From the NCBI GenBank assembly GCA_017526745.1, contig JAFXQX010000020.1, positions 1-64,000 of the forward strand: DNA of 64,000 nt. Reading direction: 5' to 3'. This DNA comes from Lachnospiraceae bacterium (GTDB lineage Bacteria; Bacillota; Clostridia; Lachnospirales; Lachnospiraceae). The notes below the pieces were generated by a model. It was not told where the DNA came from. It searched no databases and saw only the letters and a program-made list of their open reading frames with translations. Both the position numbers and the translations under genes were made by a program. Below are positions 1,724-36,326 of the stretch, piece by piece. The number at the start of each line of letters is the position of its first letter. The stretch's first letter is position 1.

Positions 1724-2443
1724 ATGACTTATCATGTGTTAATCTGTGATGACGAACCAAATATCTGTAAGCAAATAGGAACAGCTCTTTCAGTTTACTC
1801 AGATACGAATGGAACTGATATTCAAACAACTGTGTTTTATGATGGGGAGTCCTTATACTCCTTTATTGCATCCGGCAACGCTACCGATCTTGTTTTCCTA
1901 GATATTGAACTTCCCGGAATAAGTGGTGCCGAAATCGGCAATAAACTCCGTAATGAGCTCAAAAAGAACGATATACAGATCATCTATATATCATCAAAAA
2001 CAGACTATGCCCTTCAACTGTTCGAGGCGCGACCGTTTGATTTCCTTGTCAAGCCGATTCAATCGGAGCGCTTAACGACCGTTTTTTCGAAGTACTTACA
2101 GATTTATGGAAAGTCTGATAGATTCTATGAGTTTCAGTTCAACAAAAACGCGAACAGAATCCCGTTGTCACGGATTCTCTATATAAACAGCAACAACAAG
2201 ATGATAAATATCGTTACCGAGAACGAGGTGTATTCCCACTACGGCAGCATCAAGAATATCCACGGAAAATATGACAGTAACGGGTTTTGGACCGTTCATA
2301 ATTCATATATAGTAAACATTAAATACGCGGAGAGGATCGGAGACGACGAGATTGTGATGTGTAACGGCGATAAAATTCCTGTAAGCAGAAAGTTCAGACC
2401 TGAAATCCGCAAGAAACTTCTGACGCTGAACGAGGTAGTGTGA
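1724..2443 (+). CDS. LytTR-family response regulator (AgrA-like)
   Basis: 239 residues. The N-terminal receiver (about 1-120) has the acidic pair in LICDDEPN, the phospho-acceptor Asp in LVFLDIELPG (about residue 58), and the conserved Lys in DFLVKPI. The C-terminal LytTR DNA-binding domain (about 140-236) contains the typical YINSNNKMINI and the FWTVHNSYIVN segment. By family it binds direct repeats upstream of target promoters after phosphorylation by its kinase. Its TGA overlaps the ATG of the kinase gene by one base, so the two are translationally coupled. No AgrB/AgrD-like peptide genes are visible nearby, so its signal is unknown. Confidence 0.93.
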   Translation: MTYHVLICDDEPNICKQIGTALSVYSDTNGTDIQTTVFYDGESLYSFIASGNATDLVFLDIELPGISGAEIGNKLRNELKKNDIQIIYISSKTDYALQLFEARPFDFLVKPIQSERLTTVFSKYLQIYGKSDRFYEFQFNKNANRIPLSRILYINSNNKMINIVTENEVYSHYGSIKNIHGKYDSNGFWTVHNSYIVNIKYAERIGDDEIVMCNGDKIPVSRKFRPEIRKKLLTLNEVV

Positions 2444-3684
2444 TGGAACTTGATGCCATAATCTATCTGATCGTAAATGCCATTCGCGTAGGCTTGGCCA
2501 TATACCTTTTGTCTATTTTCTTAGAACGCAGATTCTCCTCATGGATCCTTGCTTTTCTTGGTGCGATAGTGTGGGCAGCAAACAGTGCGGCATATATTCT
2601 ATTAAACAACAACTGGCTGAATCTTCTCACAAACCTTGTTGGATTGTCTGTTGCAGCTTTCATATTTTATAAAGGCAGTATCATAAACCGCCTCCTAACC
2701 TTAATACTCGATATAGCGTTAGGCATAGCTGTTGAAAACGTAGCCCTTGTTATGTTTAGAGATTATGATCCGGAAATCCAAATATTCACCAACATTTTTT
2801 CGGCATTCATTTTTCTGATCGTGGTCATAATTATCGACAGAACAATTAAGTTTCACAGAAACCCCGGAATATCTATTTCCTCGAGCATATTGATGATTGT
2901 CATATCGATAGGTCTATTCTTTGTAGGATATGTCATAACATACGACACAAGTCTGACATATATTGAACTATCTCTTTGCATCATAATGCTTATAAACCTG
3001 TCCATATTATACCTGTATAACAGAATAAGCACGGGTTATGCTGCAAAGCGCGACTCCGATCTATATAAGCTCCAATCAGAAATGTACAAGCGACAGCTTG
3101 ACGTAATAAGCAAAACCTCTGAAACAACTCGAATCTTGCAGCATGATATGAAACATCATATCCACATGCTACAGGAATACTGTTCTGCCGGAGAAACCGA
3201 AAGATTAAAAGACTATCTCAATACGATCTCGTCTTCTTTTGACGCCCCCTCATCATATAAAAATACCGGAAACGAAGTTGTTAACAGTATCCTGAACTAT
3301 TATTCATCCTGTATTAAGAACATCGGCGGCATTATAGACTGTGATGTCATACTACATGATCATATGGAAATTGATGACTTTGACTTAAACACATTGTTGT
3401 CAAACCTTCTCTCAAATGCATACGAAGCACTTGAAAAGACCGAAAATCCGTATGTTAAGGTCAATATTCGGTATAACAGGGGAATACTAAATATTGAAAT
3501 AACTAACAGTTACAACGGTATCGTAAAAAAGGAACGAGGAAAGTATCTGACAACAAAGCCCAACATGGCTGATCATGGCGTAGGCCTCATCAGCATTAAT
3601 AGAATAGTAGAAAAATACAACGGATACATGGAATTATCACCGGAATCCGATATGTTCGCAGTCCGTATTGCAATTCATGCATAA
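2443..3684 (+). CDS. Sensor histidine kinase, GHKL type (AgrC-like)
   Basis: 413 residues. I chose the ATG overlapping the upstream TGA (TGATG), with GAGGT 6 bases before; a GTG three bases earlier is less likely. Residues 1 to about 195 form six or so hydrophobic segments, the membrane sensor region. The phospho-acceptor His lies in LQHDMKHHIHML near residue 235, the N box is LLSNLLSNAYEAL (about 319), and the nucleotide-binding Gly box is DHGVGLISI (about 377). This is the HATPase_c_5/GHKL arrangement of peptide-sensing kinases such as AgrC and ComD. It phosphorylates the adjacent LytTR regulator. The ligand cannot be read from sequence. Confidence 0.92.
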   Translation: MELDAIIYLIVNAIRVGLAIYLLSIFLERRFSSWILAFLGAIVWAANSAAYILLNNNWLNLLTNLVGLSVAAFIFYKGSIINRLLTLILDIALGIAVENVALVMFRDYDPEIQIFTNIFSAFIFLIVVIIIDRTIKFHRNPGISISSSILMIVISIGLFFVGYVITYDTSLTYIELSLCIIMLINLSILYLYNRISTGYAAKRDSDLYKLQSEMYKRQLDVISKTSETTRILQHDMKHHIHMLQEYCSAGETERLKDYLNTISSSFDAPSSYKNTGNEVVNSILNYYSSCIKNIGGIIDCDVILHDHMEIDDFDLNTLLSNLLSNAYEALEKTENPYVKVNIRYNRGILNIEITNSYNGIVKKERGKYLTTKPNMADHGVGLISINRIVEKYNGYMELSPESDMFAVRIAIHA

Positions 3685-6118: not shown

Positions 6119-6141
6119 AGTTCGATTCCCGTACCCTGCTT
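6119..6141 (+). repeat. Direct repeat copy 1, resembles a tRNA 3' end
   Basis: A 23-base sequence, identical at 6760-6782, containing TTCGATTCCCGTACCCTGC. TTCGATT fits a T-loop, CCCGT the 3' side of a T-stem, and ACCCTGC a 3' acceptor strand, but the 5' sides are absent. This is the kind of sequence used as an attachment site by integrative elements. The two copies bracket a broken toxin-antitoxin pair. Confidence 0.6.
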
Positions 6142-6331: not shown

Positions 6332-6583
6332 ATGAGTACATATGAATCTACTGTTTCAATGATGAATCAACTCCCGGAAACAGATCTTCTGTTGATTCAT
6401 GAGTTCGTACGTAGATTGGCCTCTAAAACCGAGATAAAAAAGGAAATGTATAATCCATATAAACCGTTAACTCGTGAGGAGATCATCGAACAGCTTTCTA
6501 TTGCCCGAAAACATGCCGATGAAGGACAAGTACTTGATGCTCATCAGGTTTCGGCTAATGTAAGAGAGAAATATGGATTATGA
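6332..6583 (+). CDS. Antitoxin-like protein of a RelB/Phd-type pair
   Basis: 83 residues, with GGAGG 8 bases before the ATG. The N-terminal part (STYESTVSMMNQLPETDLLLIHEFVRRL) resembles antitoxins whose C-terminal tail wraps the toxin; here the tail is YKPLTREEIIEQLSIARKHADEGQVLDAH, a pattern common in antitoxins paired with RelE/ParE toxins. Its TGA overlaps the ATG of the following toxin remnant by 4 bases (ATGA), the classical antitoxin-toxin coupling. The partner is truncated, so this antitoxin may be an orphan. The pair lies between two identical 23-base repeats. Confidence 0.7.
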   Translation: MSTYESTVSMMNQLPETDLLLIHEFVRRLASKTEIKKEMYNPYKPLTREEIIEQLSIARKHADEGQVLDAHQVSANVREKYGL

Positions 6584-6711
6584 AAAAATGGGATGTGATT
6601 GCCACAAATGATGTTCAACAGGACTTGGATAATTTCGTATATTATCTGTTGGTTGAAAAGCTGAATGAACAAGCTGCCAAAGCTGTGCTTGATGATTATG
6701 ATGATGTCTAA
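6580..6711 (+). pseudogene. Truncated RelE/ParE-type toxin
   Basis: 43 codons: MKKWDVIATNDVQQDLDNFV followed by a YYLLVEKLNEQAAKAVLDDY segment, then a stop. This matches the N-terminal strand-helix-helix of RelE/ParE toxins (typically about 90-105 residues), which read roughly YKVxxTxxAxxDLxxIxxYI. The catalytic C-terminal half is missing, and downstream sequence reaches the second direct repeat within 50 bases. The ATG overlaps the antitoxin stop. Most likely a decayed toxin rather than a functional small gene. Confidence 0.65.
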
Positions 6712-6759: not shown

Positions 6760-6782
6760 AGTTCGATTCCCGTACCCTGCTT
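6760..6782 (+). repeat. Direct repeat copy 2, resembles a tRNA 3' end
   Basis: Exact second copy of the 23-base repeat at 6119-6141. Here the flanking GGGAA and TTCCC can form a 5-bp stem around AGTTCGA. The interval between the copies (about 620 bases) carries the structured RNA candidate, the antitoxin and the broken toxin, so it looks like the scar of an integrated element. Confidence 0.6.
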
Positions 6783-6837: not shown

Positions 6838-6905
6838 ACCGAATACCCACAATAATCAACCGAATATCGTAAACAGGCTCATTCCCCGTGCCTGTAATAT
6901 ATAAT
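6838..6905 (+). promoter_or_regulatory. LytTR-type direct repeat and activator-dependent promoter
   Basis: ACCGAATA occurs at 6838-6845 and 6859-6866, exactly 21 bases apart (two helical turns), the spacing of LytTR-protein binding sites. The -10 box TATAAT (6900-6905) starts 41 bases after the second repeat, and the -35 position holds a poor GCTCAT, as in activator-dependent promoters. The same elements with identical spacing occur at 7503-7570. It would drive the two-gene operon beginning at 6949. Confidence 0.7.
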
Positions 6906-6948
6906 ATCCATGTATCTTCATTTCTTGAAAAAGCAAGGAGGTATTTGC

Positions 6949-7149
6949 ATGAAGGATGTTAAGACAGGAACGGTCTGTGCCATTATCAGCATGACCTCGG
7001 TAGTGATCATGTTAATATGGGGATTCTTGGCCGGTGATTTTGCTCACAGCTGGCTGGCTGTGGTGGTTGGCGGAGTTGCATCAGCTGCATTCGCAATGGT
7101 CCGCAAGGATCAGGATAAGGCCAAAAAGGATAAGGAGGGATCGGAATGA
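6949..7149 (+). CDS. Small membrane protein linked to a GG-leader peptide
   Basis: 66 residues starting MKDVKTGTVCAI, chosen because AAGGAGG lies 7 bases upstream; a longer in-frame start is not supported. Two hydrophobic segments (about 8-28 and 33-48) are followed by a highly charged tail KDQDKAKKDKEGSE. Its TGA overlaps the ATG of the next gene (ATGA). Size and linkage suggest an immunity-like or membrane-partner role for the downstream peptide, but that is only inference. Likely activated by the LytTR protein at 7609 through the repeats at 6838-6866. Confidence 0.7.
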   Translation: MKDVKTGTVCAIISMTSVVIMLIWGFLAGDFAHSWLAVVVGGVASAAFAMVRKDQDKAKKDKEGSE

Positions 7150-7415
7150 GCGAAATAGACAGCAAAAAACTCTCTGATGATATTCTTGCCAAGGTATCAG
7201 GAGGCCTTGGCGGAGAATATGAGGCAACATGTCCTAAATGCGGAAAGCCCATGCGCAAGGAAGCCAATGCGTACGGATCGGACAGTTGGAAGTGCGACGG
7301 GTGTAAAGAGACCCAGTTCCTCTCTGATGCGGAATATATAATGATGCTCAAAACAGCGGAGCAGCTTGGCCAGACACAGGGCCTGGTATATCCGGTATGG
7401 TGGAATAAAATATAA
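7146..7415 (+). CDS. Double-glycine-leader, cysteine-rich peptide (possible bacteriocin/RiPP precursor)
   Basis: 89 residues. The first 20 read like a double-glycine leader, with LSDDILAKVSGG fitting the pattern LSxxxLxxVSGG of peptides cut and exported by C39-peptidase ABC transporters or used as RiPP leaders. The remainder (about 69 residues) holds two paired-cysteine knuckles, CPKC and CDGC, 21 residues apart, as in a zinc ribbon, and ends VWWNKI. No transporter or modification enzyme occurs in this window, so export machinery would have to be elsewhere. Alternative: a small zinc-ribbon protein with a chance leader. It is translationally coupled to the membrane protein upstream. Confidence 0.7.
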   Translation: MSEIDSKKLSDDILAKVSGGLGGEYEATCPKCGKPMRKEANAYGSDSWKCDGCKETQFLSDAEYIMMLKTAEQLGQTQGLVYPVWWNKI

Positions 7416-7451
7416 TAATACGGTACGTAAAGAACCGGGTAAAGTAATGAT

Positions 7452-7483
7452 GTGGAGAAGGATATCATAGTATCCTTCTCCAC
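7452..7483 (+). terminator. Hairpin ending the peptide operon
   Basis: A perfect 13-bp stem, GTGGAGAAGGATA and its complement, with loop TCATAG. Only a weak T-rich tail follows (ATTACGTTT). It sits between the peptide gene and the repeat-bearing promoter of the LytTR gene, so termination or processing is the likely role. Confidence 0.55.
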
Positions 7484-7502
7484 AATTACGTTTAAGAAAA
7501 AT

Positions 7503-7570
7503 ACCGAATAAACACGAAAATCCACCGAATAAACATGTCGTATACGGAGCCTTAGTTGATATCATATAAT
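7503..7570 (+). promoter_or_regulatory. LytTR-type direct repeat and promoter of the LytTR gene
   Basis: ACCGAATAAACA occurs at 7503-7514 and 7524-7535, 21 bases apart. TATAAT at 7565-7570 begins 41 bases after the start of the second repeat, exactly as at 6859/6900, and the -35 position (ATACGG) is poor. This predicts autoregulation by the LytTR protein encoded at 7609 and shared control with the peptide operon. Confidence 0.7.
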
Positions 7571-7608: not shown

Positions 7609-8088
7609 ATGAAAGATATGGTAGAGATCGAGGTTGTACTTGATGAGCGGTATACAGATCCGCTTGTAACGATCAGGACAAAATCGAACACGCAGCAGGT
7701 CGAGAATATCATTTGTGCGATCGAGGATGTATCCCACAGCGATTTTCCGCAGATCGCGGCTGTAAAGGATGATTCGGTCGTGTTTGTATCCCAAAGGGAC
7801 ATAGTCAGAGTACATACGGAAGGCCGAAAGCTCGTAATACAGACCGAGAGCGAAGCATACACAGTCAAAAGAACGCTGGCCGGACTTGAGGATGTTCTCA
7901 ACGCTTCAAGATTCCTTCGAATATCCCAGTCGGAGATCATCAATCTGTACAAGGTTAAGAGCTTTGACTTTAACCTTGCGGGAACGATCGGTGTGGAATT
8001 CGACTGCGGTATCAAATCATGGGTATCAAGAAGCCGCGTCAAACAGATCAAGGCACTTCTTAAGCAAAACAGCATAAAGGGGGTTTAG
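7609..8088 (+). CDS. LytTR DNA-binding regulator without receiver domain
   Basis: 159 residues. The N-terminal part (1 to about 55) is not a receiver, and the LytTR domain occupies about 60-155 with FVSQRDIVRVHTEGRKLVIQ and FLRISQSEIINLYKVKSF. Regulators of this shape, followed by a DUF3021-type membrane protein, form LytTR regulatory systems of the HdrRM/BrsRM kind in streptococci, in which the membrane protein restrains the regulator and bacteriocin genes are targets. The gene is preceded by a 21-bp-spaced direct repeat that also precedes the peptide operon. The regulator probably activates both; not phosphorylation-dependent. Confidence 0.9.
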   Translation: MKDMVEIEVVLDERYTDPLVTIRTKSNTQQVENIICAIEDVSHSDFPQIAAVKDDSVVFVSQRDIVRVHTEGRKLVIQTESEAYTVKRTLAGLEDVLNASRFLRISQSEIINLYKVKSFDFNLAGTIGVEFDCGIKSWVSRSRVKQIKALLKQNSIKGV

Positions 8089-8091
8089 AAG

Positions 8092-8514
8092 ATGGAATTA
8101 AAAAGCAGATTCTTAATAAACTCTCTTATAGGCATCATAGCCGGAATGACTGTCGGAATGGTGATGTGGATGATATCTTCTCCTGGCGACCTCGAAGACA
8201 GGAGTTTCGCCCTACATATCATCATGTCGGGGATACACGGACTGATACCGTGCGGTGCGATGACCGTATATGAGATCGAAAGCTGGGGCCTGACTAAGTC
8301 AACGGTTGTACATGCCACGATCACTCTTGCCACGATACTTGCGATCGAGCTTCCGATGAAATGGTTTACGTGGAGCGCGGACTTTGCGATAGCAATGCTT
8401 GTTTACGTTGTCATATATATGTTCATATGGCTCTTTAATTATCTCTATTGGAAACGTACAGTCAATGAGTTGAACGATCATCTCGAGCTAATCCTTAATC
8501 GGCAGAAAGTATAA
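8092..8514 (+). CDS. DUF3021-family membrane protein, likely inhibitor of the LytTR regulator
   Basis: 140 residues with four hydrophobic segments (about 9-29, 42-62, 74-92, 100-122), and charged C-terminal residues on the inside. AAAGGGGG lies upstream of the ATG, 3 bases after the regulator stop. Length, four-helix topology and position right after a LytTR gene match DUF3021 proteins. In characterised LytTR systems the membrane partner holds the regulator inactive; that role here is inferred. The downstream phosphorelay genes start only 12 bases later and may be read from the same promoter. Confidence 0.85.
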   Translation: MELKSRFLINSLIGIIAGMTVGMVMWMISSPGDLEDRSFALHIIMSGIHGLIPCGAMTVYEIESWGLTKSTVVHATITLATILAIELPMKWFTWSADFAIAMLVYVVIYMFIWLFNYLYWKRTVNELNDHLELILNRQKV

Positions 8515-8526
8515 AAAGGGTCAGAT

Positions 8527-9333
8527 ATGCAGTTAAAAGTACTGGTTACAGGGAAGAACCGTAAGGTTGCAAGTGACATATGTGAACATCTTGAGACAGA
8601 CAGAGGATACGTAACGATCAAATGCGATCCGAACAAAACGGCACTGTTCGATCTTATGATATCAGAGCTTCCGAAGGTTGTTATCATATGCCTCGGAGGT
8701 GAATCGTCGGTCACGGTACAGGCATACAATGTGATGAGATCGGCACTCTCTTCGGGAAACATCACGACGATAGTTGTTACTGACAGTGATGACGAGAAAA
8801 TGTTCATGAAATATACCGAGCTTGAAAGGGTATTCTTCCTGTCAAGACCGGTATCATTGTTCGCACTTTATGAAAAGCTGTCCGAGATAGAGAAAACAAT
8901 TGAAGAGACCAAAGACAGCAATCTGTCGGCTTTCAGGGAATATGTCAATGAAAACGACCCGAAAAGTCGAAGAAAACAGATACTGGTCGTTGATGATGAT
9001 ACGGAGCAACTAGTACATATCAAAGAACAGCTCGAAGAATTCTACGATGTCACGTGTGTCAAGTCAGGAGTTGCCGCATTCAAATATCTTGCCAAGAAAA
9101 CTCCGGACATCATATTGCTCGATTATCTGATGCCGATGATGGATGGCCCCGAGGTCCTTCGTAACATTCAGGATACATCGGGTTGGGAGGATATACCGGT
9201 CATATTTCTTACCGGTATGACCGAGAAGAATAAGGTATTAAAGACACTTGCAGAACTGAAACCGCAGGGATATATAGTAAAGCCTGCGAAAAAATCCGAA
9301 CTTGTGGCCAAGATCATAGACATATTGGGGTGA
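8527..9333 (+). CDS. Two-domain response regulator (pseudo-receiver plus receiver)
   Basis: 268 residues. The N-terminal half (1 to about 125) folds like a receiver by pattern (LKVLVTGKNRKVASDICEHL, VVIICLGGE, TTIVVTDSD) but lacks the phospho-acceptor Asp. The C-terminal half (about 150-268) is a full receiver with LVVDDDTEQ, the acceptor Asp in IILLDYLMPMMDG and Lys in YIVKPAKK. There is no output domain, so it is probably a relay or phosphate-sink element working with the Hpt protein and hybrid kinases downstream. The protein at 35563 has the same architecture. Confidence 0.85.
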   Translation: MQLKVLVTGKNRKVASDICEHLETDRGYVTIKCDPNKTALFDLMISELPKVVIICLGGESSVTVQAYNVMRSALSSGNITTIVVTDSDDEKMFMKYTELERVFFLSRPVSLFALYEKLSEIEKTIEETKDSNLSAFREYVNENDPKSRRKQILVVDDDTEQLVHIKEQLEEFYDVTCVKSGVAAFKYLAKKTPDIILLDYLMPMMDGPEVLRNIQDTSGWEDIPVIFLTGMTEKNKVLKTLAELKPQGYIVKPAKKSELVAKIIDILG

Positions 9334-9340
9334 GAAAGAA

Positions 9341-9937
9341 ATGGATATTTCATGGCTTAATGAAACCGGACTTGATACAGAAACGGGGATCTCATATACG
9401 GGCGGACAGGACAAGTACATTTCTGCCCTTTGGCGGTTCTATAAGAACTTTGAGAAGAACAGAACAAAGGTATGCGAGTATCTTGCGGCCAAAGATTATG
9501 AGAGCTATATGATCACGGTCCATGCTCTTAAGAGTAATGCCGGGATGATAGGAGCGCGGGATCTGTCGACGCTGTTTGAGACACTTGAGACAGCTGCGAG
9601 AGATAATGAGATCGGACTGATCGAAGCACAAAATGCAGTTGCATTAAAAGAGTATGACGAACTTATTCAAAAGCTTGCTCCGATAGCAGCTATGGGCGAT
9701 GTCCGTGCTGCCGACGAGATATCTGCTGAAGTAGCGAGGGAAACGGTTGATAAACTTCTTGAGGCGCTTGATGATTTTGACGATGAAGAAGCAAAGAGGC
9801 TGACGAAGGTACTGTCCGGGTATCCTTTCAGGTTGACTCAGGCAGAAAAGCTTAAGGAAGCGGCTGCTTTTATTGAAGATTTTATGTACGAAGAGGCGGC
9901 TGAGATCATCAGACAGATCGCACCGGCTATAGAATAG
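9341..9937 (+). CDS. Hpt-domain phosphotransfer protein
   Basis: 198 residues. The histidine phosphotransfer motif VHALKSNAGMIGA (His at about residue 66) lies in an N-terminal Hpt domain of about 100 residues preceded by YISALWRFYKNFEKN. The C-terminal 80 residues are acidic and helical (LLEALDDFDDEEAKRLTKVL) and resemble the tail following the Hpt domain in the 1302-residue kinase at 36327. It is expected to shuttle phosphate between receiver domains of the three hybrid kinases that follow and the double receiver before it. Spacing to both neighbours is under 12 bases. Confidence 0.88.
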   Translation: MDISWLNETGLDTETGISYTGGQDKYISALWRFYKNFEKNRTKVCEYLAAKDYESYMITVHALKSNAGMIGARDLSTLFETLETAARDNEIGLIEAQNAVALKEYDELIQKLAPIAAMGDVRAADEISAEVARETVDKLLEALDDFDDEEAKRLTKVLSGYPFRLTQAEKLKEAAAFIEDFMYEEAAEIIRQIAPAIE

Positions 9938-9947
9938 GCTGCAGATA

Positions 9948-12440
9948 TTGAAGAAGATACAAACGATCCTTGCGATCATTCTTATAACAGTATTCGGATA
10001 TATATTCGCCGGTGAAATATTCATGCCGGCAAACACCCCGGTAAACGGAGATATCTGCGACACTCTTCCCGGAGATAAATGGGAGAAGGTCTGTCCTGAC
10101 GGAACCAAAGAGCCATTTACCGTCCCCGGAAGGACTGATTCCGATATTGTTCTTGAAACTACTCTCCCGCAACATCTTAACAAAGACTACAACGTATTGT
10201 GCTTTCGCGGAATGGACATGGAGGTCTGTGTTGACGGCAAAGAAAGAGCGGTATACAAAACCGAGAGCTACCGCTTCCTCGGAGATCGTTCCGCCGAATG
10301 CTACGTTATGGCTTCCATATACCCCGAGGATGCCGGAAAAGTGCTTCGCGTACATTACAAATATAATTCCGGCATGGTATATGAAACATATATCGGTACA
10401 AGACTGGGGATACTTGCTCACCTGTTCAGAATGTACGGGCTGGAGCTGTTTGTCGGGATGGCCCTCCTGCTTCTGGGTGCCATATGCCTGATCGCAGCCG
10501 TAACGTACAAGCTCATTCACAAAAAATACCTGGAGATGGAGCACCTTTCCATCGGTGTCATAATAGGTGCCTGCTGGGTTCTGTCCAATTCAATATTCAG
10601 ACAGCTTTATACGAGGAATATTTCGGTCATGTCAGACATACCGTTTCTGATGGTAATGGTCATGCCTCTTCCTTTTTATGTATTCCTTGATTCCCTTCAA
10701 AAAGGGCGTTATGCCAAGCCGCTTGGGTGCGCGGGAATCATCGCGATCACAAATTTTGTCGTATGTGCTGCACTCTTCGTTTCTGGAAAAGTGCCTCTTG
10801 TTAAAAGCTTTACCGGCTCCGCCATATGTGCCCTTATCGGTATCGTCATTATGTTTGTGACGCTTGTACTTGATTTTAGAAAACATCTGTTGTACTCGTA
10901 CAGATTTGTGGCGGTCGGATTTGTTCTACTTGCAATCTCAGCGATCATTCAGATATTTGCATATGCATTTGCCCATAACGGAGTGTTTTCCGGATTGTTC
11001 ATGGCATTTGGTCTGTTCGGGTTTATGATCTGTTCCATTATCCATACGATCAAACAGCTTATCGGGATAAGGCTGGAGGCAAATGAACTGCAGCATATAA
11101 ATAAAGCCAAAGATGACTTTTTGGCAAATATATCCCATGAGATCAAGACACCGCTTAACGGGATACTCGGAATGGATGAGATGATCATAAGAGATACGAA
11201 GGAAAGCAGAATCAGGGACTATGCATTTGAGATCAAAAGCGCAGGCAACACACTGCTATCTATAATCAACGATATTCTTGATCTTTCCAAGATTGAATCC
11301 GGTAATTTCGAGATAGTTCCGGGCGAGTATGATATAGCCTCGGTTCTTAACGATGTTCTGAACATGACAATGCACAGGGCAAAGAAGAAGGGCCTCGCAT
11401 TTAATTACAGTGTCTCCGAATCGATCCCTTCCGTGCTTGAAGGAGATGAGATCAGGATACGGCAGATAATGCTAAATATCATCAACAATGCCGTTAAGTA
11501 CACGCAGGACGGCAGCGTTTCGGTTGAGATATCTTCGGAATCTGTAATGATGGGCAATTACATCAATCTGATCATCCAAGTGACTGATACCGGAATGGGT
11601 ATAAAGGAAGAAGACAAAGACAAACTTTTCAAGAGCTTTCAACGACTTGACGAGAGGAAAAATCACAGCATAGAAGGAACGGGCCTCGGACTTCATATCA
11701 CGAACAGCCTGCTTCAGATGATGGATGGAAGGATCTCATTTGAAAGTGAGTATGGTAAGGGAAGTGTATTTACCGTCACGGTACCCCAGAAGGTAGTCAA
11801 GGCTTCGCCGATAGGAGTATTCTCCAAGGCAGTCAGGGAATATCTCGGAAATATGGAGACAGATGAGGTGGGACTGTATGCTCCGGCGGCCCGCCTGCTT
11901 GTTGTCGATGATAATGAAATGAACCTTGACGTGATGGAAGGGCTTCTTAGGGACACAAAGATCCCCACTGATTATGTGGAGTCGGGAGCAGCATGTATCG
12001 AGAAGGTTCAAAGCACAAAATATGATTGCATACTTCTTGACCAAATGATGCCCGGCATGAGCGGAGAAGAGGCATTAAATGAGATGGTAAGACTTGATAT
12101 CCTGAAGAAAACTCCGGTCATCGCTCTTACGGCGGATGCGATCATAGGTGCCAAGGAAAGCTATCTGGCAAAAGGATTCACGGATTATATATCCAAGCCT
12201 GTAAAATACGAGGTTCTGGAAGCAGTCCTTAAAGAGTATATTCCGAAGGAAAAACAGCTGTCACCAAGCGGTGCGGATGAACTCCCCGTAATGCTCATAT
12301 GGGGCGACGATCCCGAAAAACTGAAGCAGGAGAAAACAAGACTCGATGGCATATATAAATGCGTATGTGTAGTAGGGGAAACTGCAAAGGACAGGTACCT
12401 GAAGACTCATGATACTGTCGCAGTCATGAATGTTGTATAG
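9948..12440 (+). CDS. Membrane hybrid histidine kinase
   Basis: 830 residues starting at TTG; the following MKKIQTILAIILITVFGYIF is a convincing first membrane segment, although no strong ribosome binding site is seen. Order: membrane segment (4-24), extracytoplasmic domain (about 25-160), seven or so hydrophobic helices (163-370), HisKA with ISHEIKTPLNGILG (His near 396), HATPase_c (N box NIINNAVKY, GTGLGLHI), receiver (about 645-765) with the acceptor Asp in [13 protein letters not shown], and a 55-residue tail like half a receiver. The DISM_7TM-like topology is an inference. The ligand is unknown. Part of the phosphorelay operon. Confidence 0.9.
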   Translation: MKKIQTILAIILITVFGYIFAGEIFMPANTPVNGDICDTLPGDKWEKVCPDGTKEPFTVPGRTDSDIVLETTLPQHLNKDYNVLCFRGMDMEVCVDGKERAVYKTESYRFLGDRSAECYVMASIYPEDAGKVLRVHYKYNSGMVYETYIGTRLGILAHLFRMYGLELFVGMALLLLGAICLIAAVTYKLIHKKYLEMEHLSIGVIIGACWVLSNSIFRQLYTRNISVMSDIPFLMVMVMPLPFYVFLDSLQKGRYAKPLGCAGIIAITNFVVCAALFVSGKVPLVKSFTGSAICALIGIVIMFVTLVLDFRKHLLYSYRFVAVGFVLLAISAIIQIFAYAFAHNGVFSGLFMAFGLFGFMICSIIHTIKQLIGIRLEANELQHINKAKDDFLANISHEIKTPLNGILGMDEMIIRDTKESRIRDYAFEIKSAGNTLLSIINDILDLSKIESGNFEIVPGEYDIASVLNDVLNMTMHRAKKKGLAFNYSVSESIPSVLEGDEIRIRQIMLNIINNAVKYTQDGSVSVEISSESVMMGNYINLIIQVTDTGMGIKEEDKDKLFKSFQRLDERKNHSIEGTGLGLHITNSLLQMMDGRISFESEYGKGSVFTVTVPQKVVKASPIGVFSKAVREYLGNMETDEVGLYAPAARLLVVDDNEMNLDVMEGLLRDTKIPTDYVESGAACIEKVQSTKYDCILLDQMMPGMSGEEALNEMVRLDILKKTPVIALTADAIIGAKESYLAKGFTDYISKPVKYEVLEAVLKEYIPKEKQLSPSGADELPVMLIWGDDPEKLKQEKTRLDGIYKCVCVVGETAKDRYLKTHDTVAVMNVV

Positions 12441-12454
12441 AAAGGTTTGTGAAC

Positions 12455-13963
12455 ATGGATAAGGATGTCCGCATAAAAAAGCTTGAAAAAGAGAATCATA
12501 TATTAAGGCGAGAGTACAAGAGATTGCAGCAGGATCTGTCGATGCTTTCCAATCTTAATGATTATGCATCAAGACTGCGCAAGTTCAATGAAGAAAAGGT
12601 TGTAGCGGCCAATAATGCCAAGAGCAATTTCCTTGCCAACATGTCCCACGAGATCAGAACTCCAATGAACGCGATAATCGGAATGGACGAGATAATTCTT
12701 CGTGAAACAACGGATAACAATGTACGAAAGCACGCACTCGATATCAGAAGTGCGGGCAAAACGTTATTGTCGATCATTAATGATATCCTTGATCTTTCCA
12801 AAATAGAATCCGGCAAGATGGAGATCATACCGGTAAAGTATGACAGCTCCGCAATCTTTATGGATATCGTAAACATGACGATGAAGAGGGCGAACGATAA
12901 AGGTCTTGTTTATGAACTGAATGTTGACGGTGATATTCCCACGACTCTTTATGGTGATGAGATCAGGGTCCGTCAGATCATGCTCAATATAATAAACAAC
13001 GCCATTAAATATACCGAGGAAGGAAAGGTATCCGTTGACGCATCATATGACAGGAGTCAGGAAAAGCTCATCATCAGGGTTACCGATTCGGGGATAGGTA
13101 TTCGCGACGAAGATCTGAAAAAGCTGTTTGATTCATTTAGCAGGCTTGAAGAGACAAGAAACAGGAATATAGAGGGGACCGGGCTCGGGCTCAATATCAC
13201 AAAGCAGCTCGTTGACATGATGGAGGGGAAGATCAGTGTCAGCAGCAAATACGGAAGCGGAACGGTCTTTACCGTAAGTATAGTGCAAAAATGTATCGAT
13301 CCGTCTCCTATAGGAGATTTTGGCCGAAGGCTTGAGATGGCGGCGGCAGAGAATTTACCTAAAGGATCGAAGCTTTATGCTCCCGATGCAAGGATACTTA
13401 TTGTTGATGATAATGAGATGAACCATGAGGTGATAACCGGCCTTATTTCGGATACCCGCATACAGGTGACAAATGCCATGTCGGGACCGCAGTGTCTTGA
13501 ATGTCTGCATGAGAACAATTTTGACCTGATATTTCTTGACCAGATGATGCCCGGGATGTCCGGAACTTCCACACTGAAGGTCATAAAAGACGAAAATCTT
13601 GCCGACGGTGTTCCTGTTATAGCGCTTACCGCGGACGCAATAGTAGGAGCAAGGGATATGTATCTTAGGGAAGGATTTACCGATTATCTGTCCAAACCGG
13701 TAATGTACGAGGAACTTGAGGCGGCACTGTTTAAGTATCTTCCGAAAGATAAGATCGATACGGATGCTCATATGGGACAGGATGCTGATTCAGTGCCGGT
13801 TGTCCTTGTCATCAATGATTCTCCGGCAGCACTCTCACAGGTTAGAAGATTTCTTGGAGACGGATGCAGGGGAGTGTTTGTGAGAAATGACGAACAGGCA
13901 AGGAAATACCTTAAGGATCATACGATCGATTATGTGATAAGAGACGGAGGAAGCATGGCGTGA
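12455..13963 (+). CDS. Soluble hybrid histidine kinase
   Basis: 502 residues. AAAGG lies 9 bases before this ATG; a GTG six bases upstream is too close to it. There is no membrane segment. A coiled coil (about 5-55, LEKENHILRREYKRLQQDL) leads into HisKA ([17 protein letters not shown], His near 65), HATPase_c (GTGLGLNI) and a receiver (about 310-430) with the acceptor Asp in [14 protein letters not shown] 55-residue C-terminal tail (VPVVLVINDSPAALSQV) resembles the start of a second receiver. Lacking a sensor domain, it may receive input through the FIST protein encoded next, whose GTG overlaps its stop codon. Confidence 0.92.
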   Translation: MDKDVRIKKLEKENHILRREYKRLQQDLSMLSNLNDYASRLRKFNEEKVVAANNAKSNFLANMSHEIRTPMNAIIGMDEIILRETTDNNVRKHALDIRSAGKTLLSIINDILDLSKIESGKMEIIPVKYDSSAIFMDIVNMTMKRANDKGLVYELNVDGDIPTTLYGDEIRVRQIMLNIINNAIKYTEEGKVSVDASYDRSQEKLIIRVTDSGIGIRDEDLKKLFDSFSRLEETRNRNIEGTGLGLNITKQLVDMMEGKISVSSKYGSGTVFTVSIVQKCIDPSPIGDFGRRLEMAAAENLPKGSKLYAPDARILIVDDNEMNHEVITGLISDTRIQVTNAMSGPQCLECLHENNFDLIFLDQMMPGMSGTSTLKVIKDENLADGVPVIALTADAIVGARDMYLREGFTDYLSKPVMYEELEAALFKYLPKDKIDTDAHMGQDADSVPVVLVINDSPAALSQVRRFLGDGCRGVFVRNDEQARKYLKDHTIDYVIRDGGSMA

Positions 13964-15147
13964 GGTCATTACAGGCATTTACAAAAGAAGTGGATGATAT
14001 TGCCCTGGCGGTTTCACAATTAAGAGAAGGGATCGACACATCACTTCTTATGAGTAATACATGCGGGATCGTCTTCTGCGGATTCGAACCGGATATGGAA
14101 GAACTCGTACAAAAGCTTAAAGAGGTGTTTGATTTTCCCTTTTTCGGGTGTACCGGCATCGGAGTCCTGTCGACGGAAGGTTACTCGCAGAGCAGTATAT
14201 CTTTGCTTGTTCTTACGGCAGATGACGTCAGCTTTTCGATCGGTATGACTCGAGACATCGAGGGGCCTGACGATATATGCGCATTTGCGGATACATACAA
14301 TAAATGCGCAGCGCCGCTTTGTGATAAAGCAAAACTGATATTTACTTATGTTCCATGGCTTACAAATGTCACGTTTGATGATATCGTCAGTCTTCTTGAC
14401 AAAGAATCGGGACATGTCCCTGTTTACGGAGGCATTGCTTCGGACGGATGGACATTTGATTCGACATATGTGTTTACGAATGAAGGGGTTTCGCAAAACC
14501 GTGGAGTGATGATGGTGGTATCCGGAAATGTCAGGCCGATCTTTACGATAGAGCATTCCACTACTCTTACGACAAACCTGCATAAAACCGTAACGAAAGC
14601 TGAAGGTACGGTAGTGTATGAGCTTGATGGCCGCCCGGTCACTGATTTTATCAGGGAGATGGGGCTTATAACCAACAAGACACAGGTGATCCTCGATTTT
14701 CTCGGGACACCGTTTCTGGCTTCCCAGAAAACGAGTGACGGGGATGAGATAGACACACTCCGCTGCCTCGGAGTCATCGATCACGAAAATCATTCGTGCG
14801 GATACATCGGAAGGATCGACGAGGGCTCAGAACTTAATATGGTACTAATATCAAAGGAGGATATCGAGGCATCGGTCAAGATGGCATTTGATGAGATATT
14901 GGAGAAGATATCACAATCCGGGGATTATAAATACAGCAGCATATTCTGCTCATCATGCGCGGCGCGTTACTGTTTGCTCGTGGCAGATAAAAACGCGGAA
15001 GGTCGCGCTTATGAAGGCCGTCTTCCTGATGGATTGAATGTCCAGGGCGTATACATATACGGTGAATTCTGTCCCGCAAAAGGTAAGAAAAACGGAAGAC
15101 TATACAACGTTCTTTCGAATGAGACATTTACGATACTGGCTATCTAG
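13960..15147 (+). CDS. FIST-domain sensory protein
   Basis: 395 residues, GTG start overlapping the upstream TGA, with GGAGG 9 bases before. FIST N (about 25-215) contains [16 protein letters not shown] and [25 protein letters not shown] (about 225-375) contains [17 protein letters not shown]-type sequence and ends [28 protein letters not shown] domains are predicted small-ligand (possibly amino-acid) sensors and commonly accompany kinases and chemotaxis proteins. It is located between two hybrid kinases and coupled to a kinase with no sensor region, so it probably serves as that kinase's cytoplasmic sensory partner. Confidence 0.9.
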
Positions 15148-15158
15148 GAGCATTACAG

Positions 15159-17561
15159 ATGGAGAAGATTATCAATAACAGGATAACTGAACGGATAAAG
15201 ATGCGCTCTCACAGAAAAACAGGAATGATCATACCCATGATCTTTCTGTTCGTATTTATGACCGTTATGGTCATTTATACGTCAATGCTTATGTATAACG
15301 TTGCGGTATCGAATTCGAATGCCGTGATGGAGGACAGGATACTGACGGTTTCGGCAATGATCAATAATCATCTGAACACCGCCGAAAACGTGCTGCATGT
15401 AGCCGGCGACAGTGTTCATCATATGCTGATCAGCGGTACCACATCGGCAAGGATACATGAATTCCTCGTGGATGAAACGAATAATGTTGCCGAACAGTTC
15501 GATGAGAATTATACGGGAATATATGGCTTTATAATGGGCAAATACATAGACGGACTCAACTGGGTACCGCCGGAGGATTACGATCCCAAAGCAAGGGACT
15601 GGTTTGTTGATGCGATGGGCGCGGACGGCAGCGTTATATTTACCATGCCGTATATTGATGCACAGACAGGCAATCTTATTGTATCAGCCTGCAGAATGCT
15701 ACCGGACAGACAGAGCGTTATCGCACTTGATGTTCAGCTTAAGGGCATACAGTCAATGATGAACGAACTGACTCTTAACGGAAAAGGTTACGGGTTCGTC
15801 GTCAGCAATGATGGTATGTATATTGCTCATCGGGATGAATCCAAAAAGGGAACCGATATATGTGATATGGAAGGCGGCAGCAAATTTCTGGATGCCATCA
15901 AGGCGGCCGATTCGGGAAGTTTTCAGTATACATGGGAAGGAGAACCCTGCACGGTCTATGTCAACAGGATAGCGAATTCCTGGAATACGGTGCTTGTCGT
16001 CAGCGACCACGATCTGTATTCGGAAGTAAGAAGCCAGCGCGTGATCATCATAGCGATCTGCGCCCTGATATTCCTGATGATCACCGTGATCTACTATGTC
16101 GGACACCGTAATGAACAGAAATACAACAAAGAGATGGAGGAAATGAAGCTCGAAGAGCAGAAGACCGCATACGAACGTAAGGTGCTCGAACTTGAGAAGG
16201 ATGCCGCGAATGCATCCAACAAGGCAAAGAGTGATTTTCTGGCAAATATGTCCCATGAGATCAGAACTCCCATGAACGCGATCATCGGTATGGATGAGAT
16301 GATCCTTCGTGAGAAGGTATCCGATAAGGTGCGTAAATATGCGCTTGATATACAAAGCGCCGGCAAGACGCTGCTGTCGATAATCAATGACATTCTCGAC
16401 TTCTCCAAGATCGAATCCGGCAAGATGGAACTGATCCCTGTCGACTACGGATTCTCATCGGTAATGAACGATGTTGTAAACATGACAATGAAGAAGGCAA
16501 AGGATAAGGGGCTGGAATATAACCTCAAAGTTTCCAAAGATATTCCTTCAGTACTTCGCGGTGATGAGATAAGGATCCGTCAGGTCATGCTGAATCTTAT
16601 CAACAACGCGATCAAATATACTCACGAAGGAAGTGTTTCCATTGACGTTTCGTTTGATTATGCCACACATATGCTGTGGGTTGTCGTTTCGGATACCGGT
16701 ATAGGGATCAAAAACGAGGATCTCGGGAAACTCTTCGGTTCCTTCCAGCGGCTCGAGGAAGATAAGAACCGGAACATTGAAGGCACGGGGCTTGGCCTTA
16801 ACATCACAATGCGTCTTGTAAAGATGATGGAAGGAACGATAGGTGTCAACAGCAAATACGGTGAGGGTACGACCTTTACAGCCCAGATGAAACAGGAAGT
16901 GGTCGACAGAACCCCCGTGGGAGACTTTGCCGATAATCTGGCAAAAATGCATCAGTCAGGCCAGGAATACAAACCCGCTCTGTTTGCTCCGAAGGCCCGA
17001 ATACTTGTCGTAGATGACAATGATATGAATCTCGAGGTCTTTGCGGCTCTTCTTGAAGATACGAAGATCACGGTTACAACTGTTGAATCTGGTAATGAAT
17101 GTATAGAGATCCTTAGGGAGAATTCATTCGATATGATATTCCTCGACCAGATGATGCCGGGAATGTCGGGGGTACAGACCCTGGAAGTGATACACAGAGA
17201 GAATCTCGCCAAGGATACGGCGATCATAGCGCTTACCGCGGATGCGATAGTCGGAGCGAGGGAGAACTATATAAAGGAGGGCTTCTCGGATTACCTGAGC
17301 AAACCCGTTATGTACGAAGCACTTGAAGAAATGCTCATCAGATACCTGGATCCGTCTCTTATAGAAAAAGAGGCCGTGACCGGTAAAAGTCGCGGGAAAG
17401 ATGAAAATGAGCAGGATGATGATAAGCCGATCATAATAGCCGTCTCTCAATCTCCCGCCAAACTCAGGGCCATTAAGGAAATGCTGGGAGGCAGTTACAA
17501 GGGAGTATTTGTCAAAGATATGGACAGTGCGGCAAAGTTTGTAGAAAAAAACAGGACATAA
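15159..17561 (+). CDS. Cache-domain hybrid histidine kinase
   Basis: 800 residues. One membrane helix (about 22-44), an extracellular double Cache domain (about 45-285, with [21 protein letters not shown] and [13 protein letters not shown]), a second helix (about 292-313), a coiled coil (318-350), HisKA ([19 protein letters not shown], His near 364), HATPase_c (GTGLGLNI), and a receiver (about 610-730, acceptor Asp in [13 protein letters not shown]). The tail after the receiver resembles the tails of the two other kinases. Cache domains bind small extracellular ligands such as amino acids or organic acids. AGGAG precedes the ATG by 8 bases. Confidence 0.93.
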
Positions 17562-17585
17562 ATACCACACATCAAGGAGACTGAT

Positions 17586-18878
17586 ATGAAGAAAAGATCA
17601 TGTATTATCGTGGCAGCTATACTTGCATTTACCATGACAGCATGCGGCGGTTCGGCTGATACGAAAGTTGCGCCGGATACGCCCGAAGAGATACAGGCAC
17701 CCGAAACCAACCCGGAATCAGCACCTGCAGCCGATGATGCATCATCAGATACTGCGGATGATGCGGAGGATTTTCGTATAGGTATCGTTACCGGGTCGTT
17801 CTCACAGTCCGAGGATGACAGACGGGGTGCCGAGGCATTCCAGAAGAAATACGGGGCGGACAAGGTTACTCTTGCAATATATCCCGATAATTTCACGGAT
17901 GAAGCAGAGACCACGATAGGAGTTATGACAGGACTGGCAGATGATCCCAAGATGAAGGCCATCATTGTCAATCAGGCTGTTGAAGGAACGGATGAGGCTT
18001 TTCGAAGGATAAAGGAAGTACGGCCTGATATCTTATGTATTGCGGGAGAGACGTTCGATGTTTTCGAAGAGATGGGGGATCTGGCCGATCTGGTGGTCAA
18101 TAACGACTTTGTCTCACGGGGATATCTGATGATCAGGACTGCACATGAGCTCGGCTGCGATACATTTGTCCATATCTCATTCCCGAGACATCTCTCATAT
18201 GAAACATACGCAAGACGAGTTAATATCATGAAGGCTGCATGTGAAGAGTTCGGGATGAAGTTTGCCATGGAAGAAGCACCCGATCCCACTACCGAGGTCG
18301 GTGTTCCCGGAGCCCAAGAATATATAACAGAGCATGTACCCGAGTGGGTCAAAAAGTACGGACAGAACTCAGCGTATTTTTGTACGAACGATGCTCATAC
18401 CGAGCCGCTTATCAAGGGACTTATCGAAAACGGGGGGTATTTTATCGAGGCAGACCTTCCGTCTCCGCTCATGGGATATCCCGGAGCTCTCGATCTTGAT
18501 CTTACAGGTGCAGGTGGAGATTTCGGCAAGATAACATCCGAAGTGGAAGAAGCGATCGTTGCGGCAGGCGGGGCAGGCAGATTCGGTACATGGACATCCT
18601 CATACGGATTTGCGAATTCCGCGGGGCTTGCAGAACACGCACGAAATGTTCTATTGGGAAGATCGGATCTTACCGACCTTAATGCCATAAGGGAAGCCTA
18701 TAAGATCTATACACCCGAGACCGAATGGAACGGTGCAAAGTATACAAATGCCGAAACCGGAAAAGCATTTGACAATATCTTCCTGGTCTATCAGGACACA
18801 TATATTTTCGGGGATCCGGGGCGTTACATGGGCGTCACAAAGATCAGTGTTCCGGAGGAATACTATACGATCAGATAG
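17586..18878 (+). CDS. DUF3798 lipoprotein, extracellular ligand-binding type
   Basis: 430 residues. The signal peptide ends in a lipobox (MTACGGS, Cys near residue 20), followed by a 40-residue Ala/Pro/Asp-rich linker and the DUF3798 domain from about residue 60 (FRIGIVTGSFSQSEDDRRGAE, FVHISFPRHLSYETYARR, YFCTNDAHTEPLIKG). The pattern is that of periplasmic-binding-like proteins. It is the last gene of the kinase operon, 24 bases after the Cache kinase, so it may present a ligand to one of the sensors or scavenge it. It ends 3 bases from the end of the convergent gene, with no hairpin terminator visible. Confidence 0.88.
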   Translation: MKKRSCIIVAAILAFTMTACGGSADTKVAPDTPEEIQAPETNPESAPAADDASSDTADDAEDFRIGIVTGSFSQSEDDRRGAEAFQKKYGADKVTLAIYPDNFTDEAETTIGVMTGLADDPKMKAIIVNQAVEGTDEAFRRIKEVRPDILCIAGETFDVFEEMGDLADLVVNNDFVSRGYLMIRTAHELGCDTFVHISFPRHLSYETYARRVNIMKAACEEFGMKFAMEEAPDPTTEVGVPGAQEYITEHVPEWVKKYGQNSAYFCTNDAHTEPLIKGLIENGGYFIEADLPSPLMGYPGALDLDLTGAGGDFGKITSEVEEAIVAAGGAGRFGTWTSSYGFANSAGLAEHARNVLLGRSDLTDLNAIREAYKIYTPETEWNGAKYTNAETGKAFDNIFLVYQDTYIFGDPGRYMGVTKISVPEEYYTIR

Positions 18879-35562: not shown

Positions 35563-36309
35563 CTATCTCTGTTTTTTGAAAAACTCATCAAGTTTTGCAA
35601 GAAGCGAAGGTTTATCTATAGTCTTGAGCAGATAGTCCGCAGGACTCAATCCCACAACAGACAGTACACTGTCCTTATCCCCGTGTCCCGTAAGGAACAT
35701 CACGGGTATCTGTCCCGTCTCGGTATCCGCCCGGAGCATCTCGAGTACCTGCGGTCCGTTTGCTATCGGCATCTCATAGTCAAGAAGCACCAGATCCGCT
35801 TTGTTTCTGGCAAGATAGCTTATCGCCTGAACGCCGTTTGATGCCATCCCGACGTGGTAGCTTTCCTTCAGCCACTCATACACGGTCCTCATATAGGTGA
35901 TATCGTCATCAACGATCAATACCGTTTTCTTGCGATTTTCACCCGTGTTGTCCTCCATGTACTTGTCGATGCTTTTGATCAGATCATCCATGATGAGAGG
36001 TCTGGCAAACCACTCAAGGACAAGCGTCTCCGGTATGATCGAAAGTGCCTTTCCCTTCTCGCTCTCGTCTCCGATCAGGATGATCTTCCTGTCAAGATCG
36101 GCGGCAACATCTTTTATGTACACGAGCTTTTCGGAATCATCCTCCATCTGAGCACTCATAAACAGGATCACAAGTTCTATACCATCATGTATCTGTTCGA
36201 TCTCTTTTATCGAACCGTGCGACAGGAGAGCCTTATATCCTTCCGTCTCAAGTTTCCCCACGAGGCTGGTTGCCAGAAAGCTGTCCGTTTCGCTTACCAC
36301 CAGTATCAT
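35563..36309 (-). CDS. Two-domain response regulator (pseudo-receiver plus receiver)
   Basis: 248 residues from MILVVSETDSFLATSLV; AAAGGAG lies 6 bases before this ATG. The first half (1 to about 120) is receiver-like (GIELVILFMSAQ, RKIILIGDES, LEWFARPLIM) but has no acceptor Asp. The second half (about 130-248) is a full receiver with VLIVDDDITY, the acceptor Asp in LVLLDYEMPIANG and Lys in YLLKTIDKP. It has the same architecture as the protein at 8527. It is encoded 17 bases after the giant kinase, whose Hpt domain could pass phosphate to it. Confidence 0.85.
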   Translation of the reverse strand: MILVVSETDSFLATSLVGKLETEGYKALLSHGSIKEIEQIHDGIELVILFMSAQMEDDSEKLVYIKDVAADLDRKIILIGDESEKGKALSIIPETLVLEWFARPLIMDDLIKSIDKYMEDNTGENRKKTVLIVDDDITYMRTVYEWLKESYHVGMASNGVQAISYLARNKADLVLLDYEMPIANGPQVLEMLRADTETGQIPVMFLTGHGDKDSVLSVVGLSPADYLLKTIDKPSLLAKLDEFFKKQR

Positions 36310-36326
36310 ATTAGTCTCCTTTAACA

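Follow-up and report, generated by a model that had tools for sequence, protein, structure and literature searches.

How are two neighbouring transcription units controlled that begin behind the same short direct repeat, one encoding a small membrane protein and a GG-leader peptide, the other a LytTR regulator and a DUF3021 membrane protein? We followed this question in a window of 64,000 nt, by which we mean the whole stretch analysed on contig JAFXQX010000020.1 of assembly GCA_017526745.1 (2.6 Mb, Lachnospiraceae bacterium). In the explanation that we favour, with a probability of roughly three in four, the LytTR protein (7609–8088), bound at both repeat pairs, would activate its own operon and the peptide operon, with DUF3021 restraining it. 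Judged from sequence comparison, the repeat pair is a real, conserved regulatory element of known type, marked by a distinct half-site core, by an embedded phosphorelay and, in relatives, by a regulon of peptide and exporter genes.

Two promoters with one geometry

Pairs of ACCGAATA lie 21 bases apart at 6838/6859 and 7503/7524, and our sequence check bore out both positions, which an earlier sequence-only reading of this DNA had given. Pair A (ACCGAATA-N13-ACCGAATA, 6838–6866), recognised by sequence and conservation, belongs to the peptide-operon promoter; pair B, recognised by sequence and motif scan, is a 33-bp element before the LytTR operon (7503–7535). The respective −10 boxes, TATAAT at 6900–6905 and at 7565–7570, start exactly 41 bases past the start of the second repeat in both promoters, as had been stated, and all four elements are on the plus strand. 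Also the claim of a poor −35 position held at both promoters, with at most three of six matches to TTGACA in every hexamer 14–19 bases before the −10 box. The genes downstream were confirmed as a membrane protein and a GG-leader peptide behind pair A, and LytTR and DUF3021 behind pair B. Read as 9-bp repeats, the half-sites are 12 bp apart, and a −35/−10 spacer of 16 would put the −35 position 10 bp beyond them. In motif-matrix scans, the LytTR-operon site scored 45.9 and the peptide-operon site 24.8. Three related genomes (G001, G015 and G008) have close versions of pair A with a −10 box at 41 bases, whereas the versions in G028 and G034 are more divergent.

That the two promoters are alike by mere chance is hardly credible. 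Single copies of ACCGAATA are indeed frequent in the window (13 against 2.3 expected), but the mismatch-free pair ACCGAATA-N13-ACCGAATA occurs only twice in the 2.6-Mb assembly, at 6838 and 7503, and its wide conservation, described below, contradicts a coincidence. With up to three mismatches, the window contains four matches to the pair pattern, both known pairs included, versus 0.64 expected. The assembly has a lone single-mismatch pair (contig C22, L003), located where an open frame ends; we took it as a chance match.

The peptide operon

Pair A precedes a gene for a small membrane protein of 66 aa (6949–7149, plus strand; helices judged by eye), for which no Pfam or NCBIfam family exceeded the cut-off. 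We refer to it as family F7 of this work, homologues of which also stand behind other repeat sites. Its 3′ end at 7149 is overlapped by the start of the peptide gene at 7146 (7146–7415, plus strand). The 89-aa peptide, identified from its sequence, has a short leader with spaced hydrophobic residues that ends in GG (...ILAKVSGG), a putative cleavage motif, and a core with a CPKC...CDGC zinc ribbon. It likewise had no Pfam or NCBIfam family over the cut-off, and the NHLP and Nif11 leader models of NCBIfam matched neither this peptide nor eight others scanned. A moderately confident structure model (mean pLDDT 72.7, alignment of four sequences) has a helix ahead of the GG, short strands in the ribbon region and another helix behind the ribbon. 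Export and function of the peptide are presumptive.

Between the two units, folding revealed an inverted repeat (7451–7484, plus strand); the stretch 7440–7500 folds at −27.1 kcal/mol with a z of −9.9. It is a likely terminator or boundary, the terminator role being a presumption because a long T run is absent. Upstream of the peptide operon, the small ORFs 6332–6583 and 6580–6711 are flanked by two 22-bp sequences (6120–6141 and 6761–6782) that are identical to each other and similar to the 3′ end of a tRNA. No tRNA was called at either copy, and an integrated element may therefore have left this arrangement behind.

The LytTR operon and its phosphorelay genes

The gene behind pair B encodes the LytTR regulator (7609–8088), a protein of 159 aa in which PF04397 is the sole family over the cut-off (E 3.3e-19). 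With no receiver ahead of the LytTR domain, it is hence not of the AgrA or ComE type. The gene for the DUF3021 membrane protein, the presumed inhibitor, follows (8092–8514; PF11457, E 5.6e-23), and behind it are those for a tandem receiver (8527–9333) and an Hpt phosphotransfer protein (9341–9937; PF01627, E 5.7e-8). Domain scans identified the remaining products as a hybrid histidine kinase with HisKA, HATPase and receiver domains (9948–12440), a second hybrid histidine kinase with no sensor domain listed (12449–13963), a FIST-domain protein (13960–15147), a hybrid histidine kinase with a dCache sensor (15159–17561) and a DUF3798 protein with a lipoprotein-like signal seen by eye (17586–18878). 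These nine genes from 7609 to 18878 are all on the plus strand, no gap between them exceeds 24 bases, and from the spacing of this 11-kb run we infer one transcript. The seven genes behind DUF3021, like the wider regulon in relatives, go beyond what the sequence-only reading had described. LytTR Regulatory Systems are set apart from kinase signalling; here the LytTR/DUF3021 pair itself is devoid of a kinase domain, but it shares its gene run with three hybrid kinases, the Hpt protein and the tandem receiver. Apart from LytTR, none of the nine proteins has a DNA-binding domain over the cut-off.

Domain scan, alignment and model together describe the tandem receiver as a pseudo-receiver (Cys55) joined to an ordinary receiver (Asp199). 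It was modelled as two receiver folds (mean pLDDT 84.3), and the best Foldseek matches of the model were PleD and CheY-type receivers. Cys55 sits at the end of the third strand, which is the phospho-aspartate place of a receiver; both Cys55 and Asp199 are invariant across 41 aligned tandem-receiver sequences.

Elsewhere in the window, distant from the LytTR operon, a second protein resembles a tandem receiver by eye (35563–36366, minus strand). At 1724–3684, a LytTR response regulator adjoins a membrane protein that by eye resembles an AgrC-type kinase.

Repeat sites accompany LytTR in relatives

We compared 37 genomes of the genus, the own genome included, and counted a LytTR orthologue at 59% identity or more; 24 of them possess one. 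Repeat sites with at most one mismatch were found in 23 of the 24 genomes with LytTR versus 1 of the 13 without it (Fisher p 8.8e-8, which is not an exact probability because the genomes are related, their kinship inflating this test). Altogether, the 37 genomes gave 66 such matches versus 7 for the reversed pattern; 63 of the 66 fall into the 24 LytTR genomes, and the other three are in G008. This genome, 85% complete, has a peptide-type site, and LytTR was not found in it. G030 carries LytTR and no site within one mismatch; a weaker site there scores 36.4, with its best −10 box at 37 bases. The sequence-only reading had named lack of conservation in relatives carrying these genes as the outcome that would speak against it, and what we found there is conservation. 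When the −10 box was included, as that reading had proposed, the longer pattern with up to three mismatches gave more matches than its reverse (65 versus 27 at a distance of 41, 88 versus 30 at 42), but it was weakly specific and also matched in genomes without LytTR.

For the named genomes, the best 80 of 308 LytTR relatives were kept, some of them shared with the genus set. By their titles, these best 80 of 308 are Lachnospiraceae and a few other Clostridia, with stated sources mostly in the ruminant gut. A site scoring over 20 lies within 450 bp upstream of LytTR at 51 of these 80 loci (best 80 of 308), and the other 29 have none directly upstream. At eight of the 29 (L171, L181, L187, L195, L208, L209, L220 and L222), the site precedes a leading DUF3021 gene; for the remaining 21, either the sequence upstream is short or the absence has no explanation. 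No LytTR relative turned up in a scan of viral contigs.

The co-occurrence also bears on the possibility that another regulator binds the repeats and the LytTR gene is one target among others. Such a protein might be unlinked, or it might be the LytTR-domain response regulator encoded some 5 kb away in this window, at 1724–2443. The presence of sites, however, tracks that of LytTR, and in form the repeats agree with those published for regulators of the LytTR-only kind. Relatives of the response regulator occur only in G000 and G029, and G029 lacks a site within one mismatch. We therefore regard a different binder as very improbable. The response regulator itself was set aside as a candidate, since at E 1e-25 it has a relative in only two of the 37 genomes.

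Half-sites vary together at a fixed distance to the −10 box

The sites were summarised in a matrix of 33 positions that reads roughly RCCGAATARACAYGAAAAACGACCGAATARACA. In 1.45 Mb of fetched DNA, on part of which the matrix had been trained, it gave 180 matches at a score of at least 22; the reversed matrix gave 4, and three column permutations gave 0 each. The two half-sites tend to depart from the consensus together: 125 distinct sites had 25 common departures versus 6.2 expected, a value reached in none of 2000 shuffles and, like the genome test above, inflated by kinship. The same held for the 49 sites upstream of LytTR, with 9 common departures versus 1.8 (2 of 2000 shuffles). Inspecting LytTR by eye for residues that might account for the changes in the half-sites gave no clear answer.

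A −10 box is found at 41 or 42 bases in 111 of 142 sites, and 96 of these 111 match TATAAT in at least five of six positions, versus 5.9 in shuffled tails. At the −35 place, no full hexamer is common to the sites; only the first T is shared, by 54% and 73% of sites in the two distance classes.

Genes behind the sites

As the first gene behind a site we took the first start codon with a stretch resembling a ribosome site. For 143 unique sites, this gene encoded LytTR in 52 cases, a GG-leader peptide in 16, a receiver protein in 15, DUF3021 in 11, a small membrane protein in 6, a STAS protein in 4, DUF3798 in 3, an HlyD-like protein in 2 and an ABC protein in 1. The rest comprised 15 other and 13 large other genes, four sites with no gene called and one at a contig edge. 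Predicted GG leaders were enriched among first genes, with the pattern behind 20 of 79 sites versus 7 of 244 TATAAT controls. When loci picked by peptide homology were left out, 17 of 75 sites versus 3 of 219 TATAAT controls had it, and in the named loci, which had been chosen by LytTR, the ratio was 9 of 88 versus 1 of 247. At E 1e-9 or better, the window peptide has relatives in 12 genomes, 11 of which have a matrix site upstream. The peptide homologue of G018 has no matrix site; a degenerate pair with a −10 box at 41 bases was seen there by eye only.

In five genomes (G009, G016, G024, G032 and G035), a TIGR03796 exporter, i.e., an ABC protein with C39 peptidase, lies behind a site. At E 1e-40, matches to TIGR03796 exist in all 37 genus genomes, and in 30 of the 37 they exceed the cut-off. 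The window genome's own exporter, on contig C24, has no site; the best score there was 9.2, on the opposite strand.

Flagellin genes also follow a copy of the repeat in L191 (3757–5829, minus strand), in L188 and, weakly, in L172. The L191 flagellin bears an inserted HEMMH stretch, which we take to be like that of flagellins with a built-in metallopeptidase.

A proposed circuit and what may gate it

Co-occurrence with LytTR, conservation, half-site covariation, the −10 distance and the enrichment of GG leaders are all in line with the previous suggestion that the repeats are LytTR sites, and comparison thus strongly supports predicted LytTR sites before the regulator's own gene and before the peptide operon. 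Direct binding by LytTR, activation and restraint by DUF3021 would follow the example of the published family. In the circuit that we propose, LytTR would bind both half-sites, which are spaced by one period of 21 bp, just before the poor −35. The bound protein would activate its own 11-kb operon from LytTR to DUF3798, forming a positive loop, and would also activate the peptide operon with its small membrane protein gene. In the resting state, DUF3021 would keep LytTR inactive until a signal frees it. In relatives, such sites also stand ahead of other GG-leader peptide genes and, in five of the genomes, of an NHLP-type exporter.

The sites may be those of LytTR and yet be gated differently, with the tandem receiver and the kinases as the real gate and DUF3021 no simple inhibitor. 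A tandem-receiver relative lies in the available flanks of 53 of the 80 LytTR loci (best 80 of 308), a receiver protein comes first behind 15 of the 143 sites, and no DNA-binding output was recognised in the relay itself. DUF3021 is nevertheless the steadier neighbour, with a homologue near LytTR in 78 of the 80 loci (best 80 of 308), this homologue being the next gene downstream on the LytTR strand in 54 and the one directly upstream in 15. At 11 of the 80 (best 80 of 308), all with full 6-kb flanks, there is no receiver relative, and in published systems such membrane proteins are inhibitors. We thus consider a receiver gate rather unlikely and keep DUF3021 as the presumed restraint on LytTR.

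More tentatively, a LytTR Regulatory System might be fused here with a multistep phosphorelay, such that the tandem receiver with its invariant cysteine, itself lacking a DNA-binding domain, would pass its state to the LytTR/DUF3021 pair as DNA output; the targets of that output would include the relay itself and exported zinc-ribbon GG peptides. This whole circuit is possible, and we would not count on it. If it were true, zinc-ribbon GG peptides may serve as a signal or a weapon among rumen bacteria.

The direction of control is unreadable from sequence, and LytTR could act at these sites as a repressor or anti-activator, the activator being another protein. BlpS of Streptococcus gallolyticus offers such a precedent (PMC8545106): in the BlpR/BlpS system, as here, a LytTR-only protein and a shared operator before peptide genes are involved, in that case bacteriocin genes, and BlpS represses them at its activator's operator. 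BlpS acts alongside a kinase and a LytTR response regulator, and the abstract of PMC8545106 mentions no DUF3021 protein. The present sites, however, stand before a −10 box with a poor −35, which is an activator position, and the nearest candidate activator, the response regulator at 1724–2443, has a relative in two of 37 genomes only. Moreover, the membrane-gated LytTR regulators of S. mutans that were tested activate (PMC6193735). Repression by LytTR hence appears improbable to us, and we retain activation as the likely direction.

Relation to known systems

LytTR Regulatory Systems are described in PMC6193735 as a LytTR regulator with a membrane inhibitor, autoregulated through direct repeats. 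These are 9-bp repeats 12 bp apart and about 10 bp before the −35, for example ACCACTTAC-12 bp-ACCACTTAC. PMC6193735, of 2018, gives over 4600 putative operons and names the S. mutans systems as the sole characterised ones. Like HdrRM and BrsRM, the window has a LytTR-only regulator beside a DUF3021 protein (DUF3021 or DUF2154 in PMC6193735), with the regulator gene preceding that of the membrane protein. Its repeats are likewise 12 bp apart, within the range of 11–13, and close before the operon promoter, and sites precede both the own operon and peptide genes (a bacteriocin in PMC6193735).

Unlike in those systems, the gene run extends here into a tandem receiver, an Hpt protein, three hybrid kinases and the FIST and DUF3798 proteins. 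In relatives, the predicted regulon takes in GG-leader peptides and the NHLP-type exporter, and at 15 of the 80 loci (best 80 of 308) the gene of the membrane protein leads, directly before LytTR on the same strand. NHLP/NHLM-type export (TIGR03796) is resembled in the GG cleavage motif of the peptides and in the exporter found behind a site in five genomes, although the window peptide lacks an NHLP or Nif11 leader match and its genome's exporter is siteless and on another contig. For rumen Lachnospiraceae, the comparison yields a predicted motif for binding, covariation of the half-sites and a regulon predicted in concrete terms. It ties the system to a phosphorelay in which no DNA-binding output was recognised and to GG-leader peptides, joined in some genomes by their likely exporter. 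Within the library searched, we found no literature joining LytTR with NHLP, or with phosphorelay and Lachnospiraceae, and recognised no publication on this regulon among the matches listed; the main text of PMC13289728 on Hungate1000 bacteriocins does not contain LytTR or NHLP as terms.

The half-site core is GAATA here (ACCGAATAR), whereas many examples in PMC6193735 read ACCxCTTAx, with the core xCTTA. As the geometry matches LytTR Regulatory Systems and the core differs, we regard the element as a variant of that kind. The published form itself stands upstream of two distant LytTR relatives in other families of the order, namely ACCACTTAT-12 bp-ACCATCTAT in L034 and ACCACTTAC-12 bp-ACCGCTTAT in L035. 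Separately, L135 encodes a paralogous LytTR protein (9024–9500, minus strand; 41% identity to that of the window) with a repeat of its own, in which the changed core ACCGATCA occurs twice.
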